Origin: Bacteroidales bacterium
GTDB lineage: Bacteria > Bacteroidota > Bacteroidia > Bacteroidales > UBA932
Direction of reading: 5' to 3'
Length of the DNA stretch: 56,844 nucleotides
Assembly: GCA_017555965.1 (NCBI GenBank)
Contig: JAFZFH010000046.1
Span: 1 to 56,844, forward strand
Of this stretch, positions 10,848 to 52,927 are shown in pieces. Below the pieces are notes generated by a model. That model was not told the origin of the DNA. It worked only from the letters and a program-made list of their open reading frames with translations, and did no database searches. The translations under genes and the position numbers were made by a program. Position 1 is the first letter of the stretch, and each line of letters starts with the position of its first letter.

Positions 10848-10849
10848 AT

Positions 10850-32598: not shown

Positions 32599-32679
32599 GA
32601 TAGCCGGTCAAGCCGGCTATGACGACTATCCTGGATATGACGGCTGTGTACCGTGTCATGCCCGACTTGATCGGGCATC
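32599..32679. repeat. palindromic repeat cluster A (two full units and a short one)
   Basis: Unit 32599-32623 (minus sense) has arms AGCCGG/CCGGCT; unit 32655-32679 (plus sense) has arms GCCCGA/TCGGGC; both have the frame GTCAT-arm-CTTGA-arm-ATC. Between them, 32624-32641 is a shortened form, GTCATATCC with its complementary half. The repeats fill the 190-base gap before the gene at 32722. Confidence 0.75.
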
Positions 32680-32721
32680 ATTGTTGCTTTGCTGGCCGGT
32701 GTTCAATAACAGCTCAGTATT

Positions 32722-33168
32722 ATGGAAACACAATTCGTAAAAGTCCGCTCCGTGACTGACATTGCAGTATCTGTATTGCTTATCGCTTCCGGATTCATCC
32801 TGCTTCTTCTGCCGACCAATGCCGGAATCAACATCGTCGGATTCTTTCTGATCTTTACAGGAATAATATTGGCCCTCTCTGTCAGATCGGACTATAAAAA
32901 CCCCCTGACAGGAGAAAAGTACAAGAAGAAGGAACACTATTTCCAGCAGGATATGCATCCTCTCATCGCCTCTGTACTTGCAACAGCACCGGATTCTATC
33001 GATTTGAGCAAGGCACAGAAAGGACAGACCGTAAAGTTGGATATCTACTACAGCAGATCGACAGGCAAGGCATATCTCCAGCTCTTTGAATATATTCCAT
33101 ACAAATATGAACCATGTTCCGATATATATGAACATGAAGTTGCGAAAGTAGAAAAGCTGATAAAGTAG
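32722..33168 (+). CDS. hypothetical small membrane protein
   Basis: 148 residues. Two hydrophobic helices (about 13-29 and 33-50: VSVLLIASGFILLLLP and VGFFLIFTGIILALS) are followed by a soluble tail of about 95 residues with several Lys/Tyr-rich strands. No known motif. It sits between the palindromic repeats and the riboswitch promoter, as a single gene. A probable inner-membrane protein of unknown role. Confidence 0.6.
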   Translation: METQFVKVRSVTDIAVSVLLIASGFILLLLPTNAGINIVGFFLIFTGIILALSVRSDYKNPLTGEKYKKKEHYFQQDMHPLIASVLATAPDSIDLSKAQKGQTVKLDIYYSRSTGKAYLQLFEYIPYKYEPCSDIYEHEVAKVEKLIK

Positions 33169-33189
33169 AGGAATAAATAAAAAAGTTTA

Positions 33190-33197
33190 TATCTTTG
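33190..33197 (+). promoter_or_regulatory. -7 promoter element upstream of the TPP riboswitch
   Basis: TATCTTTG 8 bases before the aptamer, matching TAnnTTTG, so the RNA would begin at or just before the riboswitch. Confidence 0.7.
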
Positions 33198-33204
33198 CGC
33201 CATT

Positions 33205-33280
33205 GCAGGGGTGCCCGGGCTACCGTGGCTGAGATTACACCCATGAACCTGATCCGGATAATGCCGGCGTAGGAAAGCAG
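33205..33280 (+). promoter_or_regulatory. TPP (thiamine pyrophosphate) riboswitch, THI element
   Basis: The conserved THI sequence is easy to read: GGGGTGCCC, GGCTGAGATTACACCC (CTGAGA at 33229-33234 holds the pyrimidine), then GAACCTGATCCGGATAATGC and CGGCGTAGGAA for the pyrophosphate side. It lies directly upstream of the TonB receptor gene. In Bacteroides, TPP riboswitches control thiamine uptake and synthesis genes, so this one should shut the receptor off when TPP is plentiful. Confidence 0.96.
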
Positions 33281-33306
33281 AATCTCATGTGCGCATTGCG
33301 TACTCC

Positions 33307-33343
33307 CCTTGCATAAATGTAGTTACATTATGCGAGGTTTTTT
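33307..33343 (+). terminator. riboswitch expression-platform terminator, overlapping the start codon
   Basis: A 13-14 bp stem with one bulged A (arms 33307-33320 and 33325-33337, loop AGTT) is followed by TTTTTT at 33338-33343. The probable ATG (33330) lies in its 3' arm. The arm's first part, CCCCTTGC (33305-33312), can instead pair with GCAGGGG at the aptamer's 5' edge (33205-33211), a ready antiterminator. Confidence 0.75.
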
Positions 33344-35597
33344 ATTTTATGCAGCGATTCTATCGCTGATCCCTTCCGTTGCACAAGGTGCGGTGGAAGA
33401 AGCGGCCGATGAAAAGGTCGAGAGACTCGACAGTGTCGTGGTCTCATCATCACGTGCAGGCAGAAATACGCCCGTCACATTCACAATGGTCGATAAGGAT
33501 GAACTCAGCAGAGCCAATCCCATCAATTCCCTTCCGATGAATCTTGCCCTTCAGCCCTCTGTAGTATCCGTAAATGAGGGCGGAACCGGTCTTGGCTATT
33601 CCAAAGTCTCAGTCAGAGGCTCCAAAGGCTCTCAGATCAATGTCACACTCAACGGCATCACTCTCAATGATGCAGAGTCACAGGAAGTCTTCTGGGTCAA
33701 CATTCCGGCACTGTCGTCGATGATTTCAAGCGTCCAGCTTCAGAGAGGATTGGGTACCTCTGCCAATGGAGCAGGCGCATTCGGCGCAAGCATCAACATG
33801 AGTACGGCTTCAGTCGGCCCGGATCCGTTCGGATCAGCAGAAATGTCAGTAGGATCATATGGTACATTCATGAGTACATATTCGGCAGGTACCGGTCTGA
33901 TGAAGTCAGGACTATACTTCAACGCTGCATATTCGCGAGGTCTGACAGACGGATATATCCGCAATGCCTTTGCGGATGTCCACTCTGCCATGGCGGTTTT
34001 CGGCTGGATCAGAGGCCATAATTCAGTGCGTTTCACGTACCTGATGGGATCTCAGAAGACCGGCATAACATGGGAAGGCATCAGTCCCGAGCAGTATGAA
34101 ATTGATCGTAGGTACAATCCTGCCGGCGAATATTATGACAGCTTTGGAAATGTGCATTATTATGATAATGAGACGGATAACTATGCACAGCATCATTTCC
34201 AGCTGAATTATGCACATTCGTTTTCGGACAGACTGGCGTGGAGTACAACCTTCAATTATACCCGTGGAGACGGCTATTATGAAAACTACAAAGCAGGAAA
34301 GTCATTCTCCAAATATTTGATGAAGAATCCGGTTATTGACGGTGTGGTTTATGAGGGAGGTGACTTCATTACACGTGAGGGTCTTGCAAATGATTATTTA
34401 GTGCTTAATACTGATCTCAGGTATGTTTCTGATAAGACCAATCTTACCTTCGGTCTAAATCTGTCCCGCTACGACGGAGATCATATCGGCAGCGTCATCT
34501 GGAGTGACGTACTAGGAGACAGTTTCGACTATGACAGTCATGAGTGGTATCTTAACAGAGGTCTGAAACATGAAGCAAACGTCTTTGCAAGAGGTGAGGT
34601 ACTGTTTGCTGACAGACTGACAGGATTCATGGACCTGCAGTATAGAGGCGTGTGGCTTTCTATGTCCGGACCGGAGGATGACGGAGTCCTGCTGGACCAT
34701 GAAGACAACTGGCAGTTCTTCAATCCGCGTGCAGGTCTTTCCTGGCGTGTGAATTCCAGATCTCGCGTTTATGCTTCTGCATCATTAGGTCATAGAGAGC
34801 CAGGAAGAAGCGACATAAAGGAGCTCATCCTCGATGCCAATAAAGCGGCTTCTGCCGGTACAACCAGCAGAGGTGTGGACATCAGACCGGAAAAGATGCT
34901 TGACATAGAAGTGGGTCATGAGTATTCTTCGGAGAAATTTTCCATGTCTGCAAATCTGTATCTGATGGAATATTGGGATATGCTTCTTGAAACAGGTAAA
35001 CTCAGCGATGTGGGTTATGCCATCAAGGAGAATGTGCCACGAAGCTGGCGTCGCGGTATCGAACTTGCAGCCTCATGGAGTCCTGTAGAATGGCTTCAGT
35101 TAGGAGGTAATATCACATTATCAGACAATAAGATACGTGAATATACCGCATATTATGAGATGTATGATAATATGAACGATTGGAACTATCTCGGTCAGCA
35201 TAAAGTTGACTATTCTGATACTGATATTCTTATGTCGCCGTCGCTTGTGGGTATGGCATCGGTGACATTCAGGCCGTTTGTAAATTCAGCTGGATCATGT
35301 AAATCAATGTATCTCGGATGGACAGGAAAGTATGTAGGCAGGCAATACTACGACAACACTTCTTCTGACGAACGCTCGATTCCTGCATATTTTGTTGGAG
35401 AACTTTCTGCCGGATATGAACTGTTGCAGTCCTTGTCAGTATCTATCCATGTAAACAACGTCTTCAATAGGCATTACTTTGCAGACGCATGGCTCTGGAG
35501 AGCCTACTTCCAGCAAGAGGATGATTTCTACAACAGCATAGGAATCTATCCGCAATCCCCTGCCAGTTGGATGGTGAAAGTAACGTGGAAGTTCTAG
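33330..35597 (+). CDS. TonB-dependent outer-membrane receptor, probably thiamine uptake
   Basis: 755 residues from ATG 33330 (a TTG at 33309 is an alternative). Signal peptide MRGFLFYAAILSLIPSVAQG, then a plug (about 30-150: SVVVSSSRAG, VSVRGSKGSQINVTLNGI, VQLQRGLGTSANGAGAFGASI) and a 22-strand barrel ending KVTWKF with terminal Phe. No CarboxypepD-like N-domain. The TPP riboswitch in front points to thiamine or a precursor as ligand, as known for Bacteroides receptors behind such riboswitches; no PnuT or thiamine kinase gene is next to it. Confidence 0.92.
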   Translation: MRGFLFYAAILSLIPSVAQGAVEEAADEKVERLDSVVVSSSRAGRNTPVTFTMVDKDELSRANPINSLPMNLALQPSVVSVNEGGTGLGYSKVSVRGSKGSQINVTLNGITLNDAESQEVFWVNIPALSSMISSVQLQRGLGTSANGAGAFGASINMSTASVGPDPFGSAEMSVGSYGTFMSTYSAGTGLMKSGLYFNAAYSRGLTDGYIRNAFADVHSAMAVFGWIRGHNSVRFTYLMGSQKTGITWEGISPEQYEIDRRYNPAGEYYDSFGNVHYYDNETDNYAQHHFQLNYAHSFSDRLAWSTTFNYTRGDGYYENYKAGKSFSKYLMKNPVIDGVVYEGGDFITREGLANDYLVLNTDLRYVSDKTNLTFGLNLSRYDGDHIGSVIWSDVLGDSFDYDSHEWYLNRGLKHEANVFARGEVLFADRLTGFMDLQYRGVWLSMSGPEDDGVLLDHEDNWQFFNPRAGLSWRVNSRSRVYASASLGHREPGRSDIKELILDANKAASAGTTSRGVDIRPEKMLDIEVGHEYSSEKFSMSANLYLMEYWDMLLETGKLSDVGYAIKENVPRSWRRGIELAASWSPVEWLQLGGNITLSDNKIREYTAYYEMYDNMNDWNYLGQHKVDYSDTDILMSPSLVGMASVTFRPFVNSAGSCKSMYLGWTGKYVGRQYYDNTSSDERSIPAYFVGELSAGYELLQSLSVSIHVNNVFNRHYFADAWLWRAYFQQEDDFYNSIGIYPQSPASWMVKVTWKF

Positions 35598-35607
35598 AAT
35601 TTATTTT

Positions 35608-35633
35608 TAAATTTGCTGAAACACGTAATTTTG
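35608..35633 (+). promoter_or_regulatory. two candidate -7 elements before the DUF1593 gene
   Basis: TAAATTTG (35608-35615) and TAATTTTG (35626-35633) both match TAnnTTTG, so the lipoprotein gene at 35652 need not depend on the riboswitch-controlled transcript. Confidence 0.5.
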
Positions 35634-35651
35634 ACACTAATTCTACTAGTC

Positions 35652-37055
35652 ATGAGAAAAATCCTGTTCACTTTGCTTGCTGCAGTTCCCCTGCTGACCA
35701 TGTGCGGAAAACCTACTGCTGAACCTCAGCTGAAACCTAGAATCGTTGTGCTTACAGACATCGCTCCAGGTAATATCGAACCAGATGACATGGAATCAAT
35801 GGTCCGTCTTATGACATATGCCGATCAGTATGAAATTGAGGCACTTATAACGACTACAGGATGGAACTGCGACCCTTATCCCACATCATGGGCAGACTCT
35901 CTTCATAGAGTCATCAATGCTTATGAGATGGATGTCAACAATCTCATGAAGCGTTCTGAACAGACTGATTTCCTGACACTTGAAGAAGAACAGGGACAGC
36001 AGGTCTTGGGATATTGGCCTAGCCCTGAATATCTCAGAAGCAGGGTTGCTATGGGAAGTCAGCGTTCTGGAATCGGTGTCATCGGTGCGGACAATGACAC
36101 TCCGGGAAGCGAACTCATCATCCGTCTTGTGGATGAGGAAGATGATAGACCTCTGTGGATCACATGCTGGGGCGGCGGAAACACCCTGGCTCAGGCAATC
36201 TGGAAAGTTCAGCAGGAGCGTTCCCCTGAAGAACTGAAGGAATTCCTTCATAAGCTGAGAGTATATACCATCACAGACCAGGATATGGTATGGGCCATGA
36301 GAATGGACCGTGCATACAGTTCGCACCAGTGGATGCGCCGCGAATTTGCAGATGACCTTCTGTTTATCTGGGACGAAAGTGCATGGCTTTCACAGAATGA
36401 GCTCGGAAGCAGCAGCTGGGACAGATATGCTGAACGCATTCAGGGCAGAGGCAATCTTGGAAAGGCTTATCCTACATACAAGTGGGGTGTAGAGGGTGAT
36501 ACGCCAAGTTTCCTTAACGTGATGCCTAACGGACTCCATGATCCAAGTTGTCCTGAGCAGATCGGATGGGCAGGATGTTTCAGACGAGGAATATGTCCTG
36601 ATTCGCTGACAGTTGCATGGACAAACTGCAACCAGCCGATGAAGGGTATCTCAAGAAAGTATGAAGAGAGATTCTATCCTGATACCTTCAATGATTTTGC
36701 TGCCAGAATGGATTGGGCGGCAGATGGAAAAGGTAACAGAAACCCTGTAATTGTTCTTGACGGAACTGTCAGCTATATGCCTGTTTATCTGACTGTGGCA
36801 GCAGGATCTGTAATCAACGTCGATCTGACCGGAAGTTATGATCCGGACGGTGACGACGTAGAATACACTTGGTGGATGCAGGGTGATGCCGGTACATTCG
36901 ACGGTGGCGTCAACATTCAGATCAAGGACAATATCTCGACCATATTCATACCTGTAGAGGCTGCCGGAACAGAAATCCACCTCATCTGCGAAGCACGAGA
37001 CAACGGCGAACCTTCACTTGTAAATTACCGCCGAATGGTCTTGACTGTCAATTAG
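35652..37055 (+). CDS. nucleoside-hydrolase-like (DUF1593 / Sde_0182 type) lipoprotein
   Basis: 467 residues with lipoprotein signal MRKILFTLLAAVPLLTMC (Cys18); the longer frame from 35613 would spoil it. Residues 28-350 are the DUF1593 domain: RIVVLTDIAPGNIEPDDMESMVRL (Asp cluster as in nucleoside hydrolases), then LWITCWGGGNTLAQA and GAEGDTPSF-like VEGDTPSFL. The last 100 residues (VNVDLTGSYDPDGDDVEYTWW) are an Ig/cadherin-like domain. Related proteins sit near polysaccharide genes; the reaction is unproven. Confidence 0.82.
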   Translation: MRKILFTLLAAVPLLTMCGKPTAEPQLKPRIVVLTDIAPGNIEPDDMESMVRLMTYADQYEIEALITTTGWNCDPYPTSWADSLHRVINAYEMDVNNLMKRSEQTDFLTLEEEQGQQVLGYWPSPEYLRSRVAMGSQRSGIGVIGADNDTPGSELIIRLVDEEDDRPLWITCWGGGNTLAQAIWKVQQERSPEELKEFLHKLRVYTITDQDMVWAMRMDRAYSSHQWMRREFADDLLFIWDESAWLSQNELGSSSWDRYAERIQGRGNLGKAYPTYKWGVEGDTPSFLNVMPNGLHDPSCPEQIGWAGCFRRGICPDSLTVAWTNCNQPMKGISRKYEERFYPDTFNDFAARMDWAADGKGNRNPVIVLDGTVSYMPVYLTVAAGSVINVDLTGSYDPDGDDVEYTWWMQGDAGTFDGGVNIQIKDNISTIFIPVEAAGTEIHLICEARDNGEPSLVNYRRMVLTVN

Positions 37056-37061
37056 CTATAA

Positions 37062-37931
37062 TCAGAAACCAGTAATATCACACATACCGCCGTATAGGGT
37101 GCACACGAATGCTGAGACTTTGACTGCCAGCTCGTGTGCATCTCTGATTTTATAGCCTTTCATGATGGAGGCCATGAATGTTCCTATGAACGAGTCGCCC
37201 GCACCGACTGTATCAGCTACTTCTACTTGCGGTGTCTCCAAGAATGATTCTTCAGTTTCAGCATAGATATAGCTTCCGTTGGTTCCGCAAGTGAGTATCA
37301 GGAATTTAAGATTCCATTCCGATATGAAATTCATGCATGCTTCCCTATCAGATAAAGATTCATAACCGAACATTTCCTTGACGACGGCAAGTTCCTCGTC
37401 GTTGATCTTGAAGACATTGCAATGATTCAGAGATTCTGTAATGATCTCCTTGCTGTAGAAATTCTGACGAAGGTTTATGTCAAAGACCTTGTAGGTGCTC
37501 TCTGTCTGCGGCATTGCCTCAAGAAACCTTCTGATCGTATCTCTGGTCACATGATTTCTCTGTGCAAGAGTACCAAAGCAAACGACATTGCATTTTCTTG
37601 CAATCTCATCAATTTTTGGGGTATATGATATATAATCGTAGGCTACCCCCTCTATAATCTTATAAGTAGGTATGCCATTTTCATCAAGATTTATGATGAC
37701 TGTTCCTGTAGGATGGTCTACAACTTCCAGAACACTGTCCAGACCGATCTTATCAAGAACCTCTTTGGCTTCTGCTCCAAGACTGTCTTTGCCGATTGCG
37801 CTTATCATCAGCGATTCGAACCCGAACTGCTTTGCATAATAAGCGAAATTTGCCGGAGCGCCTCCTATCTTAAGTCCATCCGGAAAACAATCCCAGAGAA
37901 TATCCCCTATTCCTACAACATAATATTCCAT
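37062..37931 (-). CDS. PfkB-family sugar kinase, probably fructokinase
   Basis: 289 residues. The N-terminal PfkB signature GGAPANFAYYAKQFG (22-36) and the C-terminal one DTVGAGDSFIGTF (catalytic Asp in GAGD) are both clear. Sequence and size fit the fructokinase branch (WDCFPDG near the start), phosphorylating a free hexose with ATP in the cytoplasm. Single gene; it stops 6 bases from the end of the convergent DUF1593 gene. Confidence 0.9.
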   Translation of the reverse strand: MEYYVVGIGDILWDCFPDGLKIGGAPANFAYYAKQFGFESLMISAIGKDSLGAEAKEVLDKIGLDSVLEVVDHPTGTVIINLDENGIPTYKIIEGVAYDYISYTPKIDEIARKCNVVCFGTLAQRNHVTRDTIRRFLEAMPQTESTYKVFDINLRQNFYSKEIITESLNHCNVFKINDEELAVVKEMFGYESLSDREACMNFISEWNLKFLILTCGTNGSYIYAETEESFLETPQVEVADTVGAGDSFIGTFMASIMKGYKIRDAHELAVKVSAFVCTLYGGMCDITGF

Positions 37932-38005
37932 GTTCCCTTGATTTGATTGAATGCGAATTTAATAAAAATAAATTGTTTATATTCGCATCCTTTATTTTAG
38001 AAGAT

Positions 38006-39190
38006 ATGAAAAAGATCAACGATATATTGATGACCTGGTTCGAGCAGATCGGCCTGGCTGACGGCAATATTATTTTAGCAAATAAGATAGGTATCATTGT
38101 CGGCATCGTGATCACTGCATTGATCATTGACCTTATTTATAAGAAAGCCGTAATTCCTGCAATCAAGAAGGTTACATCCAATACGGAGTCAGAATGGGAT
38201 GACCATCTGTTGAGCGATGAACTCCTCAAGAATATCCGCAGACTTCTCCCTCCTATAGCTTTGTATGCTGTGGGACATCTGGTTTTTCCCTTCCCTCCGG
38301 TGATAATCTACTTCAATAAGTTCTGTGGAATCTATATCACCATCGTGATGGTAAAGCTGATATGTTCAGTCATATCCTCGATTTATGCTTTTTCCAGCGG
38401 ACATGAAAAGTTGAAGAGCCACGCTTTGAAGGGTTTCTATCAGATGCTCAAGCTTGTGGCCATCTGTATCGGTGCCATAATAATAGTAAGTACTGTTCTC
38501 GATAAGAATCCATTGGCGATTCTTACAGGACTCGGAGCCGGAACAGCTATACTTATGCTGGTTTTTCAGGATATGATCAGAAGTCTGGTGGCCGGTATCC
38601 AGCTTCTTGCAAACGATATGCTTCGTACAGGAGACTGGATCACAGTGCCTAAATATGGCGCAGACGGAGATGTGATGGAAGTGAATCTGACCACTGTAAA
38701 GGTGCAGAATTGGGACAAGACCATAGTTACCGTTCCGCCTTATGCCCTTGTCAATGACTCCTTCCAGAACTGGAGAGGTATGTTCGATTACGGTGGCAGA
38801 CGAGTGAAGAGGTCGATCAATATCGATATGAATACCGTACGTTTCTGCACTGAAGCGGAAATGGCCGAATTCAGGAAGCAGCCATGGATGGAAGGGTTTG
38901 AAGCGAACGGAAAACAGGAAGTGAACCTGTATATCTTCCGTCATTACATCGAGTACTATCTGCGCACCCATCCGAAGGTCAACCCGGAAATGATCATGAC
39001 TGTACGACAGCTTCAGCCGACAAATCAGGGTATGCCGATCGAACTTTATTTCTTCTCGGCAGAAACCGCATGGATCAAATATGAGCATCTGCAGGCAGAG
39101 GTCTTTGATCATGTCCTCGCCATGATGCGCACCTTCGACCTTAAAGTCTTCCAGAGCCCTACAGGTCTGGATTTTCAGAAATTGAATTAA
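38006..39190 (+). CDS. YbdG-like mechanosensitive channel (MscS family)
   Basis: 394 residues from ATG 38006. About five N-terminal helices lead to the pore helix [23 protein letters not shown] and the MscS beta domain; the string [39 protein letters not shown] is typical of the YbdG/MscM subgroup rather than MscS itself. It should open under membrane tension or act in osmotic adaptation. The DnaJ-type gene follows after 13 bases. Confidence 0.92.
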
Positions 39191-39203
39191 TGGACAACAG
39201 AAT

Positions 39204-39929
39204 ATGGGATTAGGTAAATGGATAGCAGGAGCTCTCGGATGGGCAATGTTCGGCCCTATCGGAGGCATTTTAGGATATTATCTTACATCAAGACTTGAGA
39301 GTCTTGCAGAAGCTGGTGTTGTATATGGAGACGGCCAGACAGTAAATCAAGGACAGAGAAACAGCTTCCTGATGAGTCTTCTTGTACTGTCTGCTGCAGT
39401 AATCAAGGCTGATGGTAAGACCACATCACAGGAACTGGCCACACTTCGCAGCTTTTTTGCAAGCAACTTCGGTCCACAGGCAGGTAATGAAGCTGAAGAA
39501 ATTGTAAATGAACTCCTCAAAAAGGACTTCAATGTCTATGAAGTATGCGGTCAGATCCGTTCATGCATGGATTACTCACAGCGTCTTCAGCTGTACCATT
39601 ATCTCGTTTCTCTTGGTGCCTGTGACGGTCTCCATCAGAGAGAGAGCGATCTGCTCGAAGTCATAGCCAGCTATATAGGTATATCAAAAGCAGAAGCAGA
39701 TTCCGTCATTGCGCAATTCAGACCAAGCAATGACAGCAATTACAGAATTCTTGAAATTGCTCCGGCAGCAACTGACGAAGAGGTAAAGAAAGCATACAGA
39801 AAGATGGCTGTGAAATATCACCCTGACAAGGTTGCTACTCTTGGTGCAGACGTACAGAAAGCTGCAGAAGAGAAGTTCAAGGCTGTCTCTCAGGCATACG
39901 AAGCCATCTGCAAAGAACGCGGAATCTGA
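39204..39929 (+). CDS. TerB-domain / DnaJ-like co-chaperone (DjlA-type)
   Basis: 241 residues. An N-terminal glycine-rich hydrophobic segment ([22 protein letters not shown]) can anchor it in the membrane, residues 50-165 form a TerB-like helical domain, and the last 65 residues are a J domain with the HPD motif ([12 protein letters not shown]). The order matches DjlA, a DnaK co-chaperone at the inner membrane. It follows the channel gene by 13 bases. Confidence 0.88.
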
Positions 39930-39953
39930 TGTCCGATCAGGTGGATCCTGACA
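39929..39953 (-). repeat. degenerate palindromic repeat unit
   Basis: Minus-sense unit ending GATCGGACATC with a partly decayed second arm; it begins at the last base of the DnaJ-like gene's stop codon. The rest of the gap to 40036 shows nothing clear. Confidence 0.5.
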
Positions 39954-40035
39954 GAAATTCAAATTATATCTGCAAAAATCTGCAACAGAACACCTAAACT
40001 GTCGTCATATAGACAGGAAAAATAAAACGTAACTA

Positions 40036-42342: not shown

Positions 42343-42368
42343 TCCGTTCATCCAGTAAAAGTTTTTCG

Positions 42369-42376
42369 TATATTTG
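42369..42376 (+). promoter_or_regulatory. -7 promoter element of the SDR-YjbQ-DUF3667 unit
   Basis: TATATTTG 23 bases before the ATG at 42400. Confidence 0.65.
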
Positions 42377-42399
42377 CATCTTTGTATCAGATGTAAAAT

Positions 42400-43469: not shown

Positions 43470-43486
43470 AATTATATCTATACAGG

Positions 43487-44557: not shown

Positions 44558-44567
44558 TGTATAGTAT

Positions 44568-44702: not shown

Positions 44703-44907
44703 AGATATTGCTGAGGCATTGGCTGTATTGGACGAAATAGACCTCAAAGGCATGAAAACCGAGGCATCAAACAAGTATCTTAAAAGTTTCGCCTCCTCTA
44801 TTGACGAGAAGGCGATATCAGATTTTGTCATGGTAACTGAGGATGACAAAACGAAGACCCTCATGTACATGGCAGGTAAAATTGATATAGAGTCGTTAAA
44901 GAAATAA
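44695..44907 (+). pseudogene. 3' fragment of an unidentified gene joined to the patatin stub
   Basis: In the frame shifted from the patatin stub, VRKDIAEALAVLDEIDLKG... runs for about 70 codons to a stop at 44907, ending ...MYMAGKIDIESLKK. The tail looks like the last strand of a small Bacteroidetes DUF (possibly DUF4252-like), but I am not sure. It has no start of its own apart from a weak TTG. It overlaps the end of the convergent sstT gene by 12 bases. Confidence 0.6.
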
Positions 44908-46116
44908 CCTGTTGCGCATGTCTGTGGCGATGGTGAAGAAGGCATCACCGCTTGAGTTGAGAGCGGTCTCTACAGAGTCCTGAACGACTCCGATGATGAA
45001 TCCTACAGCAACGACCTGCATGGCAACATCATTGCTTATACCGAACAGTGAACATGCCATAGGAATCAGCAGGAGCGAACCTCCTGCCACTCCTGAGGCA
45101 CCACATGCACCAAATGTCGCTATGATACTGAGCAGCATTGCGCTGCCGAATGATGGCACAATGCCCAATGTGTAACATGTGGCCATCGTCATAACTGTAA
45201 TTGTAACTGCCGCGCCATTCATGTTAATGGTACTTCCCAGTGGGATACTTACAGAGTAAAAGTCCTCATCAACTCCCATCTGCTTGCATAAGTTCATGTT
45301 TACAGGAATGTTGGCTGCCGACGAACGGGTAAAGAAGGCACTGACTGCACTTTCCTTCAGACATATCCACAATAGCGGATATGGATTGCGACGAAGTATG
45401 CATCCGACGATCAGAGGATTGAGAACTAGCGAGACTGTCAGCATACAACCTACAAGAAGCAGAAGCAGTTTACCGTAAGTGGTAAAGATCTCGAGACCGC
45501 TTTGTGATACTGTTGTATATACAAGACCAAGGATTCCGAATGGAGCACATTGGATGATCCAGGCAACGACCTTTGATACGGCATCAGCCCAATGACGTAC
45601 GCTGCTGATTGTCTGTTCGCCAGCTGCTGTCTTAAGTGCAAGACCGATCAGTGCTGCCCAGAAAAGTATGCTGAGATAGTTTGCGTTTGCTATAGCAGTG
45701 ACCGGATTGCTCATCACCTCACGTACTATGTTGCGGAATACATCACCAAGAGCTCCAGGTGCAGCAGTCGAAGCTCCGGAAACATCTGTCAAGGCGATTT
45801 GCGCAGGGAAAATAAAGCTGGCAATGACAGCCACTACTGCAGCCAGCAGAGTTGTCAGAAGATAAAGTGTGATGACTGTGCGGAATCTGCTGCCCAATCC
45901 AGGTCGTGCAGTTGCCACAGAAGATGTGACAAGCACCGCCACGAGCACTGGAGCGATTGCTTTGAGTGCTCCGACGAAAAGGTCGCCCAACATAGATATT
46001 ACACCTGCTCCAGGTACTGTGAGAGCCAATACGGCACCGATTACAATACCTGCCAATATACGCAGCATCAGATTTGTCTGCTGCCATCTGTTAAGAATGG
46101 ATTTCGCTATTCCCAT
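44896..46116 (-). CDS. sstT: serine/threonine:sodium symporter
   Basis: 406 residues, about 8-9 membrane helices plus re-entrant loops; a DAACS-family (glutamate-transporter fold) protein. The N-terminus NRWQQTNLMLRILAGIVIG and the ion/substrate motif STINMNGAAVTITVMTM mark it as SstT, taking up serine and threonine with Na+. Promoter TATCTTTG at 46146-46139. Intact apart from the 12-base overlap at its end. Confidence 0.95.
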   Translation of the reverse strand: MGIAKSILNRWQQTNLMLRILAGIVIGAVLALTVPGAGVISMLGDLFVGALKAIAPVLVAVLVTSSVATARPGLGSRFRTVITLYLLTTLLAAVVAVIASFIFPAQIALTDVSGASTAAPGALGDVFRNIVREVMSNPVTAIANANYLSILFWAALIGLALKTAAGEQTISSVRHWADAVSKVVAWIIQCAPFGILGLVYTTVSQSGLEIFTTYGKLLLLLVGCMLTVSLVLNPLIVGCILRRNPYPLLWICLKESAVSAFFTRSSAANIPVNMNLCKQMGVDEDFYSVSIPLGSTINMNGAAVTITVMTMATCYTLGIVPSFGSAMLLSIIATFGACGASGVAGGSLLLIPMACSLFGISNDVAMQVVAVGFIIGVVQDSVETALNSSGDAFFTIATDMRNRLFL

Positions 46117-46158
46117 AATTCAAATTTAATTCAACTTACAAAGATAAACAAATTATCA

Positions 46159-46258
46159 GATGCCCGGTCAAGCCGGGCATGACTGTATAAGTATGCCCGT
46201 CATTGCCGGCCCAAGTATTGGCACACGTATACCGTCATTGCCTGCTTGACCGGCAATC
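46159..46258. repeat. palindromic repeat cluster B (three units)
   Basis: Unit 46159-46183 (minus sense, arms GCCCGG/CCGGGC), a diverged unit 46199-46223, and unit 46234-46258 (plus sense, GTCAT-TGCCTG-CTTGA-CCGGCA-ATC, arms with one mismatch). They occupy most of the 220-base space between sstT and the next gene; the remainder holds the two promoters. Confidence 0.78.
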
Positions 46259-46276
46259 TGTCGATTTACATGACAT

Positions 46277-46310
46277 TTTGTGGAACTAATAACATTTACC
46301 ATTAACTTTG
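46277..46310 (+). promoter_or_regulatory. promoter of the TapB-like gene
   Basis: TAACTTTG (46303-46310) with an upstream TTTG (46277-46280), 22 bases apart, close to the Bacteroidetes -33/-7 arrangement. Confidence 0.65.
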
Positions 46311-46337
46311 TAGGAAAGATCGTAAAATCATAAAACC

Positions 46338-47108
46338 ATGAAAAGAATCACATTCAGTATTGTATCTTTTATATGCATGAGCTTGTGCTGCCTGTCAAAT
46401 GCACAGAACAACGATAAGACAGCTGCAGACGTCTACCTTGTTCCAAATCCAGAGACTGCCAGATGGTCGTATATCCAGAGTGATGAGGCAGGAAAGCAGA
46501 CATCTACCGTTTACTATTCTGTTGAATCGGTGACTGGTGATGCCGTAAATGGCTTGGTGAAGATGCTGGTCGAAGAAGTTTCGGTTGCGTCACCTGCAGA
46601 CACAACCAAGGATTTTGTATTCTATCGTTTCAAAGATGGAGAATACATGCTGGACATGAATGCTATATTAGAAAGCGATGCCTTGCAGGATGCTACCAAG
46701 AGCGCTATTGATGAGGAAGGAGTTGAACTCACAGAAGAAGAGCTGAAAGAGGTTTATGAGGCCTTGAAGGAAGAGTTGAAGATATCAGGAGAGGTAAGAG
46801 GCATACCTCGCTATCCACAAGTCGGAAAACTTCCTGATTATGAATTCAAGTTCAAGGTATTCATTGCTACAGTAAAGGTATCAGGTGAAAAACGTAGGAT
46901 CGTGGGAACTGAACGCATTGAAACCAAGGCAGGTACATTTGACTGCTTCGTAATGGAAGAGACTCTTGTCACAAAGGCCATGCTGATGAAGGAGGTTGAG
47001 AAGACAAAATCATGGTATGCATATGGTATCGGTCTTGTCAAAGAAATCACCTACGACAAGAATGATAACGTCGTTTCATCCGTCATCCTAAACGAAATCA
47101 ACTGGTAG
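46338..47108 (+). CDS. secreted TapB/DUF3108-like protein
   Basis: 256 residues with Sec signal ending CLSNA-QNN. The mature part is beta-rich; GIGLVKEITYDKN near the end and the WYAYG turn before it resemble the DUF3108/TapB family, a lipocalin-like fold of unknown function. An acidic helix (ELTEEELKEVYEALKEELK) interrupts the beta region. Single gene ending at the terminator 47139-47180. Confidence 0.72.
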   Translation: MKRITFSIVSFICMSLCCLSNAQNNDKTAADVYLVPNPETARWSYIQSDEAGKQTSTVYYSVESVTGDAVNGLVKMLVEEVSVASPADTTKDFVFYRFKDGEYMLDMNAILESDALQDATKSAIDEEGVELTEEELKEVYEALKEELKISGEVRGIPRYPQVGKLPDYEFKFKVFIATVKVSGEKRRIVGTERIETKAGTFDCFVMEETLVTKAMLMKEVEKTKSWYAYGIGLVKEITYDKNDNVVSSVILNEINW

Positions 47109-47138
47109 TACTAGTTACAGTTTAAAGATCAACAATAC

Positions 47139-47180
47139 AAAGACTCTCCGCTACAGAGCGAATCTGTGCGGAGAGTCTTT
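47139..47180 (+). terminator. strong intrinsic terminator
   Basis: 13-bp perfect outer stem (47139-47151 with 47168-47180) capped by a further 5-bp stem (ACAGA/TCTGT, loop GCGAA), T4 at the end. It ends the TapB-like gene's transcript. Confidence 0.92.
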
Positions 47181-47189
47181 TATGTATGA

Positions 47190-47214
47190 GATGTCCGATC
47201 AGTTCGGTCATGAC
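47190..47214 (-). repeat. palindromic repeat unit D
   Basis: Minus-sense 25-base unit with arms GACCGA/TCGGAC between GTCAT and ATC, between the terminator and the next gene. Confidence 0.65.
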
Positions 47215-47217
47215 TGA

Positions 47218-47724
47218 TTATTTCAGTTCGATGAGAATGACGCCGTTTGAGGTGTCGCCGAAGGTCTTGTAAGGTTCCACCTTATCATTTTTAAAGACAT
47301 GGATACTTTTGATGGAGTCAGGCGAGATTGAAGACAGTTCGCCTTTTGACAGTGTGCCGTCCGGAGACTTGAGAATGCAAAGAGGGTCTGCTTTTACCGC
47401 ATCCACAGGTGGTGTAGTGGTTCTGTATGTGATTGTCGCAACTGATTGATATTCTGTATTGTTCGTTGACTCATCAGTATTAGTCGGACGAATGCTGATA
47501 ACCGGAGTATCTGCGGCTGCTTTTGCCTTTGTAGTAATTACCACAACGGATTCCACGCCTTTGATCACTTCCATATTATTGATCAGATCTTTAGGCAGAA
47601 CATCTACGAATGACTTCTGTGACACAGCTCCATCAACAATATAAAGAGTCTTGTCGGTGTTTTCCTGTGCAAAGGCAAGGCTGCTTGCCAATGCCATACT
47701 GATAATGAGAATCAACTTTTTCAT
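47218..47724 (-). CDS. secreted protein with two TonB-plug-like modules
   Basis: 168 residues with Sec signal (SSLAFA-QEN). Two short modules have the plug-domain pattern: TLYIVDG...DLINNMEVIKG...VVVITTK (about 26-68) and LCILKSPDG...SPDSIKSIHVFKND...GVILIELK (about 118-168). There is no barrel. Similar free plug modules occur in Bacteroidales regulators and BlaR1-like proteins. The partner is unknown. Promoter TATATTTG at 47760-47753. Confidence 0.75.
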   Translation of the reverse strand: MKKLILIISMALASSLAFAQENTDKTLYIVDGAVSQKSFVDVLPKDLINNMEVIKGVESVVVITTKAKAAADTPVISIRPTNTDESTNNTEYQSVATITYRTTTPPVDAVKADPLCILKSPDGTLSKGELSSISPDSIKSIHVFKNDKVEPYKTFGDTSNGVILIELK

Positions 47725-47845
47725 AACAATATTGGATTTAAGATTTCGACAGCAAATATATAGACATAAAATCGTAATCTGAGTTAACTCTACGTTAATA
47801 AATGTTAACTATTGTTAAGTCTTCCGACAGAGCGGAATTTATTGC

Positions 47846-47853
47846 TACTTTTG
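47846..47853 (+). promoter_or_regulatory. -7 promoter element of the two-component operon
   Basis: TACTTTTG, matching TAnnTTTG, 17 bases before the kinase ATG. Confidence 0.6.
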
Positions 47854-47870
47854 TATAAAATCTGCCGAAG

Positions 47871-49094
47871 ATGTCACGAAAATTCTTTAGAAACATATCG
47901 ATTCTTGCAGTCCTGTCGCTGCTTACCCTTGCTGTAGTTGAGTCTGTCTGGGTATATCGTATGTATAATGATTCTGTGACAGACTTCAGAAGAAGGGTTG
48001 AATCTGCAATCTACAAAAGCATCTATAAGGCGTTCCGTATGGATGCTATTCCTGGGTTGGCTGAGGCTACCTATATAAAGATCAATCTTGATGAATTTTC
48101 CCTCTATTTTGAGCCGAATCTGATAGAATTGGATGCATATCAGCCCTATTATGCGGAAGTTCTTGTGAATGATGGTGAGGATCCTCGTGTCATTATGACA
48201 AAAGGAGAACAACCAGCCTTGAATGATCCGATGACCACCGTCATACCGATCGATGATGACGGAAGATACTCACTCCTTCTTTCCATTGAAATGCCATTTA
48301 AGGTCTTTCTGAGCAGAATGTGGGGACTGATTATGTCATCAGTTGCAATCGTCCTGCTACTGGCAGGAGTACTTCTGTATCTTGTCAGGACCATGTTCCG
48401 ACAGAAGACTCTTGAGGAAATGAGACGTGATTTCACCCACAATATCACCCATGAACTGAAGACACCTATTTCTGTTGCTGTTGCAGCAACAGATGCTTTA
48501 AGAAACTTCTCTGCTGATGCTGACGTAGAGAAACGAAGCCGATATCTTGAGATAATTGAATCACAATTGACCCAGCTTTCAACGATGGTGGAACACATCC
48601 TTTCAGTGTCAGTGGAAGGTCGTGAGTATAAATACAATCCTACCCGGGTATATCTTAACGACATCGTTGGTCAGCTCACTCAAGGAGCAGTAATGAACAG
48701 TGGAAAGACACCGGTGTTCAATATTGACTGCGCTGAGGACATCAAGATCATGGCGGATGAATTCCACATCAAGAATCTTCTTGCTACTGTAATCGACAAT
48801 GCCGTCAAATATTCATCAGATCCTATTGTAGATATCACGGTGTCTTATGAGTCCGCAGATGTGTCCATTGAGATAGAAGACAACGGATGCGGAATATCGA
48901 AAGATCACCTTTCACACGTCTTTGAGAAGTTCTATAGAGTGCCGACAGGTGATATTCATACGGTAAGAGGATATGGACTTGGATTATACTATGCAAAACA
49001 GGTTGTAGACCTTCACAAAGGAACAATATCAATGAAAAGCCGCGTCGGCGAAGGAACAACAGTAACGATAAAGCTGCCAGTTAATGAGCAATAG
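47871..49094 (+). CDS. sensor histidine kinase
   Basis: 407 residues: membrane helix at about 10-28, a periplasmic sensor region of about 120 residues, second helix at 152-172, then HisKA with phospho-acceptor His194 (NITHELKTP) and HATPase with the N, G1 and G2 boxes (VIDNAVKYS, IEDNGCGISKDH, GYGLGLYYAK). A class-I transmembrane kinase; the signal is unknown. The response regulator starts inside its 3' end (11-base overlap). Confidence 0.95.
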   Translation: MSRKFFRNISILAVLSLLTLAVVESVWVYRMYNDSVTDFRRRVESAIYKSIYKAFRMDAIPGLAEATYIKINLDEFSLYFEPNLIELDAYQPYYAEVLVNDGEDPRVIMTKGEQPALNDPMTTVIPIDDDGRYSLLLSIEMPFKVFLSRMWGLIMSSVAIVLLLAGVLLYLVRTMFRQKTLEEMRRDFTHNITHELKTPISVAVAATDALRNFSADADVEKRSRYLEIIESQLTQLSTMVEHILSVSVEGREYKYNPTRVYLNDIVGQLTQGAVMNSGKTPVFNIDCAEDIKIMADEFHIKNLLATVIDNAVKYSSDPIVDITVSYESADVSIEIEDNGCGISKDHLSHVFEKFYRVPTGDIHTVRGYGLGLYYAKQVVDLHKGTISMKSRVGEGTTVTIKLPVNEQ

Positions 49095-49773
49095 GATAAA
49101 GATACTTTTAGCAGAAGATGAGCGGATGCTTGCTGAGATTCTCTCAGACACATTGTCAGACAGAAATTTCGATGTACATCTTGCTTATGACGGTCTTCAG
49201 GCACTGGAGACTGTCAGAAAAGAGGCATTTGATGTCATTGTAAGTGACATTATGATGCCAAACCTGGACGGTTACTCTCTGACAAAGAAACTCAGAGCAG
49301 AAGGATATAATACGCCTATACTTTTCCTTACTGCACGTTCTTCAACAGAAGATGTAGTGAAGGGATTTGAAGTTGGAGGCAACGACTTCCTGAAGAAACC
49401 GTTTGCCATCGATGAACTCATCGTAAGAGTCAGAGCACTTGCAGGAAGGCTTCAGACTCAAGAATCAGCTGAAACCGTTTATAAGATAGGCCAATACGAA
49501 TACATTCCTTCTTCGAAGGTGTTGAAAATCCACCAATGTGACACTACCCTGTCGGCAAGAGAATCTGAGGTGTTGCTCCGTCTCTGCCGTGACTTCGGAA
49601 AGACTGTGAATACATCAGCTCTGCTGAAGGAGCTCTGGGGTGACGACAATTACTTCAATCTCCGCAGCCTCAATGTCTATATCACCCGCCTCCGCAACCA
49701 TTTCAAGGAAGATCCTTCCATAGAAATAGAAAGCATTCGCGGTGTCGGCTACAAGCTGAAATTCTCTACTTAA
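49084..49773 (+). CDS. OmpR/PhoB-family response regulator
   Basis: 229 residues. Receiver domain with phospho-acceptor Asp55 (VSDIMMP), the Thr in LFLTARS and Lys in FLKKPF; then a winged-helix DNA-binding domain (about 130-229, ending ESIRGVGYKL). It should act with the overlapping kinase. The MMPL gene directly downstream is a natural target, though it has its own promoter. Confidence 0.95.
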   Translation: MSNRIKILLAEDERMLAEILSDTLSDRNFDVHLAYDGLQALETVRKEAFDVIVSDIMMPNLDGYSLTKKLRAEGYNTPILFLTARSSTEDVVKGFEVGGNDFLKKPFAIDELIVRVRALAGRLQTQESAETVYKIGQYEYIPSSKVLKIHQCDTTLSARESEVLLRLCRDFGKTVNTSALLKELWGDDNYFNLRSLNVYITRLRNHFKEDPSIEIESIRGVGYKLKFST

Positions 49774-49789
49774 TCTTCTGTAGAATTAT

Positions 49790-49797
49790 TATCTTTG
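49790..49797 (+). promoter_or_regulatory. -7 promoter element of the MMPL gene
   Basis: TATCTTTG, 29 bases before ATG 49827 and just past the response-regulator stop codon; a place where the regulator could act. Confidence 0.6.
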
Positions 49798-49826
49798 TGC
49801 GGAAAATCAGCCTGAACATTAAACAG

Positions 49827-52800
49827 ATGAAACGTATCGCACGGATTCTTATAAGATATAGACATTTCCTGCTTGTCCTGATGATTGCATTAGGAGTGGC
49901 GGGAGTATGTGCGCTTCCTGAAGTCAGGATCGTCTCCGATATGACCACTTATCTCCCTGACGATTCCAGGATGAAGCATGGACTGGACACCTTGAAGTCA
50001 TTATTCAGCGGTATCGACATAAATGGTCCAGGAGTAAGTGCCATGTTCACAAACGAGGCCGTACACGATTCTCTTGCCGCGGAACTGACGGAATTGGACG
50101 GCATTGCTGCAATAATCGGCAACCGCTCCAACGACCGACATACGCTTTACCAATTTGTCTTGAACCCGAGCGCATCGCCGGATGAAGTTGCAGACGCCAT
50201 AAGTGGCAGATATGGCGACAGCGTAACAGTAGAAACAGCATCAGCCAATCTGCTCCCGGACAACATGATGTTCATTGCCATCGTCTGTGTCGGACTGCTG
50301 ACATTGATTCTGGTAATAATGTGTGCTTCCGTCATTGAGGCAGCCTTATTTCTTGTTCCAATAGGCATCGCTGTGGCGATAAACATGGGAAGTAATGTAT
50401 TCCTTCCAGGGGTCTCAGTGGTGACAAGCGCCATTGCATCCATTCTTCAGCTGATTCTGTCCATGGATTATTCAATCATATTGGCCAATAGATACAGGAA
50501 GGTAAGAGAACGGAATAATGATAAGGTCGAGGCCATGACTCAGGCACTTGCAGACACCACTTCTCCAATCATCGGTAGCGCAATGACCACGATTCTGGGT
50601 ATGTCAATGCTGGCATTCATGGACTTCAAAATCGGTCTGGATATGGGACTTGTCCTGTCTAAGGGCGTATTCCTCAGCCTTGTATCCATCTACCTAGTGC
50701 TTCCATCCCTTATATTATCCTTCGACAAACTCATCAGGAAGACGACGAAAAAAGTACCCCTGCTGCATACATACAAACTTTCGGGGTTCGAAGTACGCCA
50801 TCGCATGCTCATAGCAGTGTTTTTCGCAATATTCTTTGTGGCCTCATATTTTCTCTCAAAGCGCACAGCGATTTCATTTTCAAATACTTGGCCTACAGAA
50901 ATTACACGTGAATTCCCTCAGCAGAATCAGACAGTGCTGCTTTACAGGACCGATGAGCAGGAGAAGATCATACCTTTGATAGACTCACTCGCAAGCGACT
51001 CGAAAGTGGTAACTGCGTTGAGCTATCCATCAATTATGCTGAAGGAACGCACGGCAGATGAGATGATCGGATTCATCAGGGAAATGAGCACCCTGCTGCC
51101 AGCAGGAGCTGAATCCATCGACAGTACCATGCTGTCGCCTGACCTTCTAGGCATCGTATATTATGCAGCTGCACATCCGGAAAGGAACGAGGAGATGAGT
51201 TTCTCGGATATTGAGAAGTTCGTAAGTGAACTTCCTGCGGAATATTCTGCAGGATTTGACATTGACAATATGATGCAGGACATCATGAACGGTCTCATGG
51301 AAGAGGAAGAAGAAGCGCAGGTGGATGTCGCTCCCCTACAGGTCGCTGAACCTGAAGCACCAGCTTCCCTTGAACCGGAAGTCGCGTCTTCTCCAGAACC
51401 AAGTCCGCGCGATACAGTCGCTGTTAAGATATCTGTACCGGATACCACCATACAAAGTACTCTGGCCTCGAGATTCACATTCGAGAATTCAACTCAGAAG
51501 ATGACATCGCGCGAGATGGCAGAATTCCTTGGATTTGATCACACACAGGCATCTATAATCTACAGATTGGCAGGACACTCAAAATCCGGCATGACTGCGC
51601 AGGATTTCATCAGATACATCAATGAAAATATCCTTACTCGTAAGGCCTACGCAAGAATGATTTCTGATGAGCAGAAAAGTGAACTGGCGGAAGTAAGGCA
51701 TCAGATTGATTCAGCAGTGACTGCCGGACCAATTCAACCGTCTGTGACTCCTATTCAGGAAGATTCTGTAGCTGAAATCATTATGCAGACAGATAGTACA
51801 GCGAAAGCGGAAACTCCGACACCAATTGTAACAGAAACTCCGAAGGTCGAAAAACCAAAAAAGATTACCCCAGTAGAGGTTCTGTTGGATATGGCAGTTT
51901 CTGACAAGAAATATTCGGCGGAAAAAATAGGCAGTACCCTGCGCAATGCAGGAATAGACGTGGCACAAAGCGACATAGACCTGCTGTTCATGTTCTACGG
52001 AAGCCGTAACAACGACACCTCCACTCTTAAGATGTCGATAGCTGACATCATGGATTTCCTGACAGGAACACTTCTCAGCGACCCTATGTATGAGCGATTC
52101 ATTGACGAAGCCGCAAAAGAGGGCATTGTATCCATGAAACAGTCTATGACAGAGGGGCTTGGAAACCTTAGAGGCGAAAGATATTCAATCGCGACCATCG
52201 TATCGGACTACGAAACAGAGTCCCATGAAACCTTTGACTTCATAGGAAGACTGAGCGAAGAATGCGACAAAACTTTTGACGGAGAATGCTACCTTATCGG
52301 AGAATCTGTGATGTACAAGGAGATGAAAGACGGGTTCTCGCATGAGATGACGGTGGTGACTTTGCTCACAATCATCGTCATCTTCATAACGGTAGCCTTG
52401 ACTTTCCGTTCGATGATTGTGCCGGTATTCCTGCTTCTCATAGTTATGTCAGCTGTATATGTGTGCGCATTCGTGGGAGGGCTTGGAGGACAACCGATGA
52501 ACTATCTCGCATATCTGGTCACACAGAGCATCCTGATGGGAGCCACCATAGATTACGCCATCCTGTTCACAGACTACTATCGTAAGAAGAGAATGTATCA
52601 TCCGATATGGCAGGCTCTCCGCAAGGCATATAAGAACACGATCCACTCTATCATGACGTCAGGACTGATACTGATTCTCTGTCCTTACATCATGTCAATG
52701 CTGTTGACTGACCCTACAATCTCCCTGATCCTCCACAGCATATCAGTAGGAGCTCTCTCAGCCATACTGCTCATAATATTCATTCTGCCGGGACTGCTTG

Positions 52801-52850
52801 CAGCATTTGACAAAATCGTCGTAAAGAAGGGTGCACATCCTCCGGTATAA
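49827..52850 (+). CDS. MMPL/RND-family membrane transporter with a large repeat-bearing loop
   Basis: About 1007 residues from ATG 49827. Two MMPL halves (about residues 1-330 and 830-1007), each with several helices, including ILSMDYSIILANRY and GATIDYAILFTDYY, the twin helix-4 motifs. The outer loop between the halves, about 500 residues, contains three related helix-loop-helix modules (see findings) and an acidic/Pro-rich linker (about 500-545). RND family proteins export lipids or drugs with proton force; the cargo is unknown. It follows the two-component genes. Confidence 0.9.
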   Translation: MKRIARILIRYRHFLLVLMIALGVAGVCALPEVRIVSDMTTYLPDDSRMKHGLDTLKSLFSGIDINGPGVSAMFTNEAVHDSLAAELTELDGIAAIIGNRSNDRHTLYQFVLNPSASPDEVADAISGRYGDSVTVETASANLLPDNMMFIAIVCVGLLTLILVIMCASVIEAALFLVPIGIAVAINMGSNVFLPGVSVVTSAIASILQLILSMDYSIILANRYRKVRERNNDKVEAMTQALADTTSPIIGSAMTTILGMSMLAFMDFKIGLDMGLVLSKGVFLSLVSIYLVLPSLILSFDKLIRKTTKKVPLLHTYKLSGFEVRHRMLIAVFFAIFFVASYFLSKRTAISFSNTWPTEITREFPQQNQTVLLYRTDEQEKIIPLIDSLASDSKVVTALSYPSIMLKERTADEMIGFIREMSTLLPAGAESIDSTMLSPDLLGIVYYAAAHPERNEEMSFSDIEKFVSELPAEYSAGFDIDNMMQDIMNGLMEEEEEAQVDVAPLQVAEPEAPASLEPEVASSPEPSPRDTVAVKISVPDTTIQSTLASRFTFENSTQKMTSREMAEFLGFDHTQASIIYRLAGHSKSGMTAQDFIRYINENILTRKAYARMISDEQKSELAEVRHQIDSAVTAGPIQPSVTPIQEDSVAEIIMQTDSTAKAETPTPIVTETPKVEKPKKITPVEVLLDMAVSDKKYSAEKIGSTLRNAGIDVAQSDIDLLFMFYGSRNNDTSTLKMSIADIMDFLTGTLLSDPMYERFIDEAAKEGIVSMKQSMTEGLGNLRGERYSIATIVSDYETESHETFDFIGRLSEECDKTFDGECYLIGESVMYKEMKDGFSHEMTVVTLLTIIVIFITVALTFRSMIVPVFLLLIVMSAVYVCAFVGGLGGQPMNYLAYLVTQSILMGATIDYAILFTDYYRKKRMYHPIWQALRKAYKNTIHSIMTSGLILILCPYIMSMLLTDPTISLILHSISVGALSAILLIIFILPGLLAAFDKIVVKKGAHPPV

Positions 52851-52902
52851 AAAACAATTCCCTCGTCATCCCCGGCTCTACCCTTGTCACGTTGGCGATA
52901 TA

Positions 52903-52927
52903 GTCATCCCCGGCTGGACCGGGGATC
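52903..52927 (+). repeat. palindromic repeat unit C
   Basis: Full 25-base unit with arms CCCCGG/CCGGGG between GTCAT and ATC; a half unit (GTCAT, CCCCGG) lies at 52865-52880. The 180-base gap also holds a promoter at 52982. Confidence 0.75.

Follow-up and report, generated by a model that had tools for sequence, protein, structure and literature searches.

Probable CGTC-tagged palindromic repeats in a Bacteroidales genome, with hairpin units retained at sites shared with a diverged relative

The stretch of DNA considered here (56,844 nt; the window) is contig JAFZFH010000046.1, or C7, of a draft genome of a Bacteroidales bacterium (the host; GCA_017555965.1), which comprises 2,564,929 bases in 165 contigs and is 86.5% complete with 4.9% contamination. 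The window carries six strong copies of a 25-nt palindromic repeat, which are probably CGTC-tagged repetitive extragenic palindromes (REPs), and two probable truncated copies (Table 1). On direct reading, all six strong units run from GTCAT to ATC on the strand given in Table 1. Folded as single-stranded DNA, they give stems of at most 8 bp and loops of 5 nt; the unit at 32599, for example, folds into an 8-bp hairpin without a mismatch (-8.5 kcal/mol as DNA, z -5.7). A first-pass annotation of the window had stated that changes in one arm are matched by the partner arm in these copies. This was true of four of the six units, which are perfect hairpins, but not of the GACCGA arm at 47190 (GACCGA/TCGGAC) or of the unit at 46234 (TGCCTG/CCGGCA).

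Table 1. REP units and probable truncated units in the window
Feature	Sequence	Position	Strand	Score (bits)	Remarks
REP unit	GTCATAGCCGGCTTGACCGGCTATC	32599..32623	-	35.5	Left partner of a head-to-head pair; 31 nt spacer
REP unit	GTCATGCCCGACTTGATCGGGCATC	32655..32679	+	41.1	Perfect hairpin; right partner of the 32599 unit
REP unit	GTCATGCCCGGCTTGACCGGGCATC	46159..46183	-	42.2	Perfect hairpin; left partner of a head-to-head pair; 50 nt spacer
Probable truncated unit	GTCATTGCCGGC	46199..46210	+		Tag and left arm only; by eye; in the 46159/46234 spacer
REP unit	GTCATTGCCTGCTTGACCGGCAATC	46234..46258	+	32.9	Hairpin with one stem mismatch; right partner of the 46159 unit
REP unit	GTCATGACCGAACTGATCGGACATC	47190..47214	-	30.3	One stem mismatch; between convergent ORFs
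Probable truncated unit	GTCATCCCCGGC + loop start	52865..52882	+		By eye; 20 nt before 52903
REP unit	GTCATCCCCGGCTGGACCGGGGATC	52903..52927	+	37.8	Perfect hairpin; between co-directional ORFs
ORF, open reading frame.

The six units scored 30.3-42.2 bits against a covariance model, compared with 11.4 bits for the best other match in the window, and the unit at 46159-46183 had the highest score in the whole genome. The model was seeded with these six units and eight variants from the genome, and the window units therefore match by construction. Since they helped to build the model, the search of the whole genome is the more independent evidence. The two truncated units gave no covariance-model match. 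A seventh, decayed unit had been proposed at 39929..39953 (no strand assigned). We did not accept it because its score (7.1 bits, E=8) is at the level of chance; these 25 nt do not fold like a unit, although 28 nt at the site are 82% like 47190-47217. Three related sites that were read by eye (two paralogs in genome G090 and one in G153) contained no REP.

The repeat family itself proved to be real and is not confined to the window. A degenerate exact pattern had 21 matches in the genome, whereas the reversed pattern had none. The covariance model, for which 150 of 1370 candidates were scored, gave 106 matches at E<=1; the weakest few of these (e.g., C93:19803 and C147:4759) resemble chance matches in genes. 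Composition and pairs were counted in 97 units, with the exclusion of nine matches that were not exactly 25 nt long. The unit reads 5'-GTC-[AT NN CCG R]-C NN GA-[Y CGG NN AT]-C-3'. Its GTC tag is nearly fixed (95, 97, and 96 of the 97 units at the three positions) and is preceded by C in 44, T in 30, A in 18, and G in 5, such that the tag is mostly (C/T)GTC. The 8-bp stem opens with AT (pair 4-24 is A-T in 88 and pair 5-23 is T-A in 95 of the 97), the loop is C-N-N-G-A, and the tail has C as its first base in 95 units, followed mostly by T and then by any base. The unpaired positions G1, T2, C3, C12, G15, A16, and C25 are each kept in at least 95 units, whereas loop positions 13 and 14 vary. 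Within the stem, CCG/CGG at 8-10/18-20 is nearly fixed, and variation is found at pairs 6-22 (all four Watson-Crick pairs), 7-21, and 11-17.

The two arms co-vary. Among 64 distinct units, 95.3% of stem cells were paired versus 82.3% after shuffling, 80 cells had changed on both sides versus 25.0, and the covariation score was 0.357 versus 0.121; none of 500 shuffles reached any of these values. The signal was lost when the partner arm was slid by 1-3 columns. The number of further pair types did not differ significantly (12 versus 10.4 in the same 64 units; 54 of 500 shuffles). The shuffles leave kinship among the copies in place. These results support the claim of the first-pass annotation that the arms co-vary and that the hairpin is what is kept, and its covariation now holds in a larger set of units.

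The units had been described as lying only between genes. By our reading of the genes, this is correct for the window. The 46159/46234 pair lies between divergent ORFs, and the genes flanking 32599/32655 (31486-32529 on the minus strand and 32722-33168 on the plus strand) also read as divergent; a crude ORF script had scored this pair as co-directional via an overlapping antisense ORF. Neither of these two flanking ORFs had a Pfam match, and the product of 32722-33168 is likely a membrane protein. In some relatives, a gene flanking the window units is present, but neither a unit nor a clean empty site was found at the aligned place. In the genome as a whole, the description fails. By the crude ORF caller, 29 of the 106 units fall inside ORFs, some of which are spurious; of the remainder, 48 have co-directional, 18 convergent, and 11 divergent ORFs on either side. 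In-frame units occur in metH (two), folA, a tsaB/tsaD-family gene (four), an S9/DPPIV peptidase gene, and the genes for a protein with part of an Ogt-type domain, a NusG-like protein, and a conjugative-transposon TraM. The host folA on C117 (dihydrofolate reductase; L170:2789-3325, minus strand) has one in-frame unit and an 18-bp partial repeat of it; folA of the related genome G024 has a single unit at the same place as the host unit. The tsaB/tsaD-family gene on C133 (L175:2657-3565, plus strand) encodes a protein with a Pfam match to residues 32-106 of 303, and its four units fall at residues 114-209. Since the match ends before the units, the state of this gene is uncertain.

The units occur in both orientations and are sometimes paired, as originally noted. 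Among 34 pairs of neighbours no more than 150 bp apart, 21 were head-to-head, 11 head-to-tail, and 2 tail-to-tail. In 20 of the head-to-head pairs, both units were exactly 25 nt; 15 of these 20 were heterodimers, in which a unit with C at position 7 is joined to one without (mean of 9.6 in shuffles, p 0.013).

The in-frame copies in metH were followed through related genomes. When 50 orthologs were screened by alignment, a single insert (L227) was flagged as a REP, and most inserts proved to be other sequence. In 130 loci, 110 distinct ORFs were then searched directly; 37 were flagged, many of them through two-mismatch chance matches, and clear units were recognized by eye in at least 12 of the 110, or 13 with L195, which the filter had missed. 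The same linker of metH is occupied by a unit in seven related genes. The host and L317 have G-C at pair 6-22 of this unit, and the remaining five have T-A; the L317 unit has a wobble pair elsewhere, and one of the five T-A units has a mismatch elsewhere. Apart from the REPs, the MetH linkers of the genus (loci L192-L241) hold many in-frame inserts that resemble other dispersed repeats in translation (e.g., RSAPPLAS..APVPPLNVPRVA and LRQAQG), and metH ORF lengths in the genus vary widely.

The host REP loci were aligned with those of G024, the top-scoring metH relative; in the metH tree, L317, L200, and L370 were nearer to the host than G024, with weak support. Fifteen host units had a G024 unit at the aligned place and in the same orientation. 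In these shared units, 110 of 120 stem pairs were unchanged, six had changed on both sides with pairing kept, and four had changed otherwise. The seven fixed unpaired positions (the tag, the loop-closing bases, and C25) differed at 2 of 105 positions, whereas loop positions 13-14 differed at 18 of 30. Four-fold sites differed by 0.667 in metH and mostly by 0.4-0.66 in neighbouring ORFs (lowest 0.33); the pooled difference of 0.51 includes a few near-0 frames that look antisense. Thus, the loop centre drifted like four-fold synonymous sites, and the rest of the unit was held at the shared places. The clearest case is a dimer on C93, in which TACCGG/CCGGTA corresponds to TGCCGG/CCGGCA, and CCTCGA/TCGAGG to CCCCGA/TCGGGG. 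Stem class agreed in 10 of the 15 shared pairs versus 2.5 when permuted (0 of 50,000 permutations), and N6 in 13 of 15 versus 6.2. In contrast, the loops of shared pairs were as different as permuted ones (18 versus 15.5). Since stem and tag were held while the loop drifted, and G-U pairs were not more frequent than A-C mismatches, the surviving hairpins have probably been kept in place with the constraint at the level of DNA.

Turnover was also observed. At two sites outside the window (E1 and E2), G024 has a whole abutting dimer and the aligned host site has none; next to the dimer, a few further bases have no counterpart, which blurs the insert boundaries and the target site. This presence and absence of whole dimers, whether by gain or by loss, suggests that the family spreads as head-to-head dimers. 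Three further sites (E3-E5) read better as ruined or partly deleted host units. The shared-site data fit upkeep with turnover and do not, on their own, separate a host function from mutational repair or reinsertion.

Further features were noted in and around the window. The sole Rfam match in the window at the gathering score was a thiamine pyrophosphate (TPP) riboswitch (RF00059, 56 bits) at 33197-33293 on the plus strand, upstream of the ORF at 33309; the units themselves had no Rfam match. In both G024 and G026, the same riboswitch is immediately preceded by a CGTC REP; G090 has a ruined one there, and the host and G007 have none. A hairpin at 13837-13887, with 21-nt arms that are 95% complementary and 9 nt apart, lies between convergent ORFs (10850-13831, plus strand, and 13913-15577, minus strand) and looks like a shared terminator. 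ORFs 19865-21076 and 27933-29078 (minus strand) look like paralogs because they have stretches of 99 nt (81%) and 87 nt (72%) in common.

Copy number was compared among 37 genomes of the genus, including the host (with 128 candidates scored in each, which makes the high counts minimum values). At E<=0.01, counts ranged from 0, in seven genomes, to 127, and 17 genomes had at least 10 units. In an even draw of 393 Bacteroidales genomes (19 candidates scored per genome), 41 had a match at E<=1e-4; many of these score near 25.7 bits and are perhaps other REP families. Two further members of the genus within this draw had no match.

The units were also considered in relation to transposases. The first-pass annotation had likened them to REPs moved by a RAYT-type transposase, a comparison not borne out by the tag, which is (C/T)GTC rather than GTAG, or by the position of candidate genes. 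The only Pfam Y1_Tnp match in the host at E<=0.001 is the tnpA of an IS200/IS605 element, beside a tnpB-like gene with OrfB_IS605 domains, and it has no unit nearby. A search for TnpA-REP (Y1) genes did find RAYT-like proteins of approximately 300 aa in the genus, with invariant HxH and Tyr, four of them in the host; the three that were tested scored 38.6-46.3 bits with the NCBIfam RAYT model, for which the cut-off is 80. The first 10 RAYT-like genes had no adjoining unit. Among 82 loci with flanks of approximately 1.5 kb (60 new ones and 22 that include the first 10 again), four contained a unit scoring 19 bits or more, and one other had a 13.8-bit match; in subfamily A4, a unit was near 2 of 14 loci. 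Among 20 loci of 8-20 kb, which include these two A4 loci, the nearest units were 255 bp away (host C86), with a pair at approximately 0.3 kb (G032:C5). Flanking of RAYT-like genes by units, which had been suggested by units near the host C86 and C133 genes, was therefore dropped: the C133 units sit in the tsaB-family gene approximately 1 kb from the RAYT-like gene, and four RAYT-like genes read by eye with their flanks have other repeats. The C86 gene lies between two similar stretches (L113 ~9480-9660 and 10690-10880), each with a strong hairpin, the left-hand one around CAGGTACCCC...GGGGTACCTG; this looks like a repeat system of its own. We found no dedicated mobilizer in these searches, which did not extend to IS110 and other transposase families.

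The units are probably CGTC REPs, closest to the class with an 8-bp stem and a 5-nt loop (CGTC-2), a class assigned by lengths and not by consensus sequences. In the parts consulted of Di Nocera, De Gregorio, and Rocco (2013, PMC3733652), CGTC REPs carry a CGTC tag that is often TGTC or CCTC; the stem has 8-9 bp and nearly always begins with AT pairs, the loop has 4-5 nt, and a short unpaired tail fits CCA in most cases. Head-to-head dimers predominate, heterodimers occur in CGTC-2 and CGTC-3, some copies are intragenic, and the elements are found in five phyla, including Bacteroidetes. The present units share the unpaired (C/T)GTC tag, the AT-opening 8-bp stem, the 5-nt loop, the predominance of head-to-head dimers with heterodimers favoured, the intragenic copies, and the lack of a consistently flanking transposase among the RAYT-like genes searched. 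They differ from that description in having A or G before GTC in 23 of 97 units and in that head-to-tail pairs are commoner. The family is thus of a known kind, in a new host genus as far as the literature was searched. Two Rickettsia palindromic elements, RPE-4 and RPE-6, have been assigned to CGTC-4 and CGTC-1 in the same source; they belong to the same superfamily and have in-frame copies in genes, but are of another sequence class in another host, and are likened here on those two points.

Similarities to GTAG REPs and REPINs, as far as the consulted parts of PMC3116915 and PMC8266576 describe them, include short imperfect palindromes in inverted pairs, a conserved unpaired tag beside the stem, fixed loop positions in some groups, and compensatory changes in REPIN spacers. 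However, the tag here is NGTC, and no RAYT gene is consistently flanked by units. According to the parts consulted of PMC6006769, atypical structures flank the Bacteroidetes class 2 tnpA-REP genes of subclass 2.6, for which a mean length of approximately 179 is listed. RAYT-like genes of the genus were likewise seen with structured repeats of their own nearby, but their proteins are approximately 300 aa long.

We propose that the family expanded within the genome, often in the form of head-to-head pairs joining two stem types, and that many copies then stayed at their sites. The unit would most likely be recognized as a folded single DNA strand, through its tag, stem, and loop-closing bases, by one putative protein common to the copies, and selection may uphold the copies. 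Recognition of the folded strand would explain why the arms co-vary, why certain unpaired bases are fixed, and why the loop centre is free. Taken as a whole, spread and upkeep of CGTC REPs with recognition of folded single-stranded DNA is the best explanation, and we hold it with moderate confidence. Several points weigh against it. Copy number is very uneven in the genus, and the family is dispensable since it is absent from 7 of 37 genomes. The tail is mostly CT, unlike the CCA of most CGTC REPs in the consulted parts of PMC3733652. Two of the 15 shared pairs are ambiguous, with extra host units there, and several host sites are empty or ruined at places aligned to G024 units. Only recognizable units were counted, and the compared regions were picked for having units in both genomes; survivors are thereby favoured because units that evolved as fast as synonymous sites would no longer be recognizable. 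No recognizing protein was identified, the strand test was small, and its ORF calls were crude.

An alternative is that a RAYT-like Y1/HUH protein of the genus moves the units in trans, as has been proposed for REPINs, and its invariant HxH and Tyr and the units near the C86 and G032:C5 genes fit this. Relatives of the RAYT-like alignment A2 are present in all 17 genomes with at least 10 units and in 14 of the 20 with fewer (Fisher p 0.022; Spearman 0.43, p 0.007), and full-length A4 members in 11 of 17 versus 3 of 20 (p 0.003). However, A4 was chosen because its first members sat in unit-rich genomes, and without the seven genomes that suggested the subfamily, the association is 4 of 10 versus 3 of 20 (p 0.18); we rejected A4 as the cognate enzyme on these grounds and retained it only as part of this alternative. 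Pfam Y1_Tnp alone was not significantly associated (15 of 17 versus 12 of 20, p 0.073), none of these tests on 37 genomes was corrected for kinship or completeness, and six unit-rich genomes lack a full-length A4 member, though the drafts are incomplete. With the inconsistent flanking and the other repeats beside the genes, we regard mobility in trans as unlikely. It is more improbable still, in our judgement, that units at shared places arrived separately at insertion hot spots without long upkeep. The metH linker is patchily occupied on the tree, with several near lineages empty, and the uneven copy number would also be in keeping with separate arrivals. However, stem class and N6 agree far above their permuted values at shared places, and the order and orientation of dimers are the same at aligned sites.

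The arms may also co-vary without selection if template switching between them copies changes from one to the other, a mechanism described for RNA hairpins in the consulted parts of PMC8794818. The double Watson-Crick changes at shared sites, the few mismatches, and the lack of an excess of G-U intermediates agree with such repair, but it leaves unexplained why the unpaired tag and C12, G15, A16, and C25 are held while positions 13-14 drift, and why CCG/CGG is nearly fixed. We consider repair as the sole cause to be distinctly unlikely. A function of the hairpin in transcripts, in 3'-end protection or termination, appears quite improbable. Many units follow closely on the end of an ORF and have co-directional or convergent neighbours (66 of 106 according to the crude caller). 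However, RNA pairing would lead us to expect more G-U than A-C on the transcribed strand, and we counted 10 and 9, respectively, in 114 units with an assigned strand. There is thus no sign of RNA pairing as the constraint in this small test; of the two forms of hairpin that had been put forward, RNA and single-stranded DNA, we infer the latter. Units also occur inside ORFs and between divergent ORFs. We rejected intrinsic terminators, since T-runs (at least six T in 8 nt) adjoin the stem on the tail side in only 3 of 97 units and on the other side in 1 of 97, and also rejected a known Rfam family, in the absence of any match.

Returning to the proposed spread and upkeep of CGTC REPs, persistence in place seems to be new: in the literature searched, neither CGTC REPs in this genus nor their site-by-site persistence had been reported before. 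Copies kept at the same sites in two species with heavily diverged synonymous sites go beyond the parts consulted of PMC3733652. Tentatively, and with the chances rather against it, we speculate that, far from being selfish remnants in decay, CGTC REPs are long-lived chromosomal sites that are maintained one by one, each a DNA hairpin with a fixed tag and loop clasp, read by one putative recognizer within genes as well as between them, and selected through species splits near synonymous saturation. In the portions consulted, Di Nocera et al. (2013, PMC3733652) reported no dedicated transposase for CGTC REPs, and no later answer was found in the literature searched. Since the units are common to related species, and some are in frame in conserved genes, a site-by-site test of selection, repair, and reinsertion is possible. 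The contrast between the drifting loop centre and the held tag, stem, and loop clasp provides a concrete bait for a recognizing protein. The evidence of upkeep in place is the part of these results worth following.

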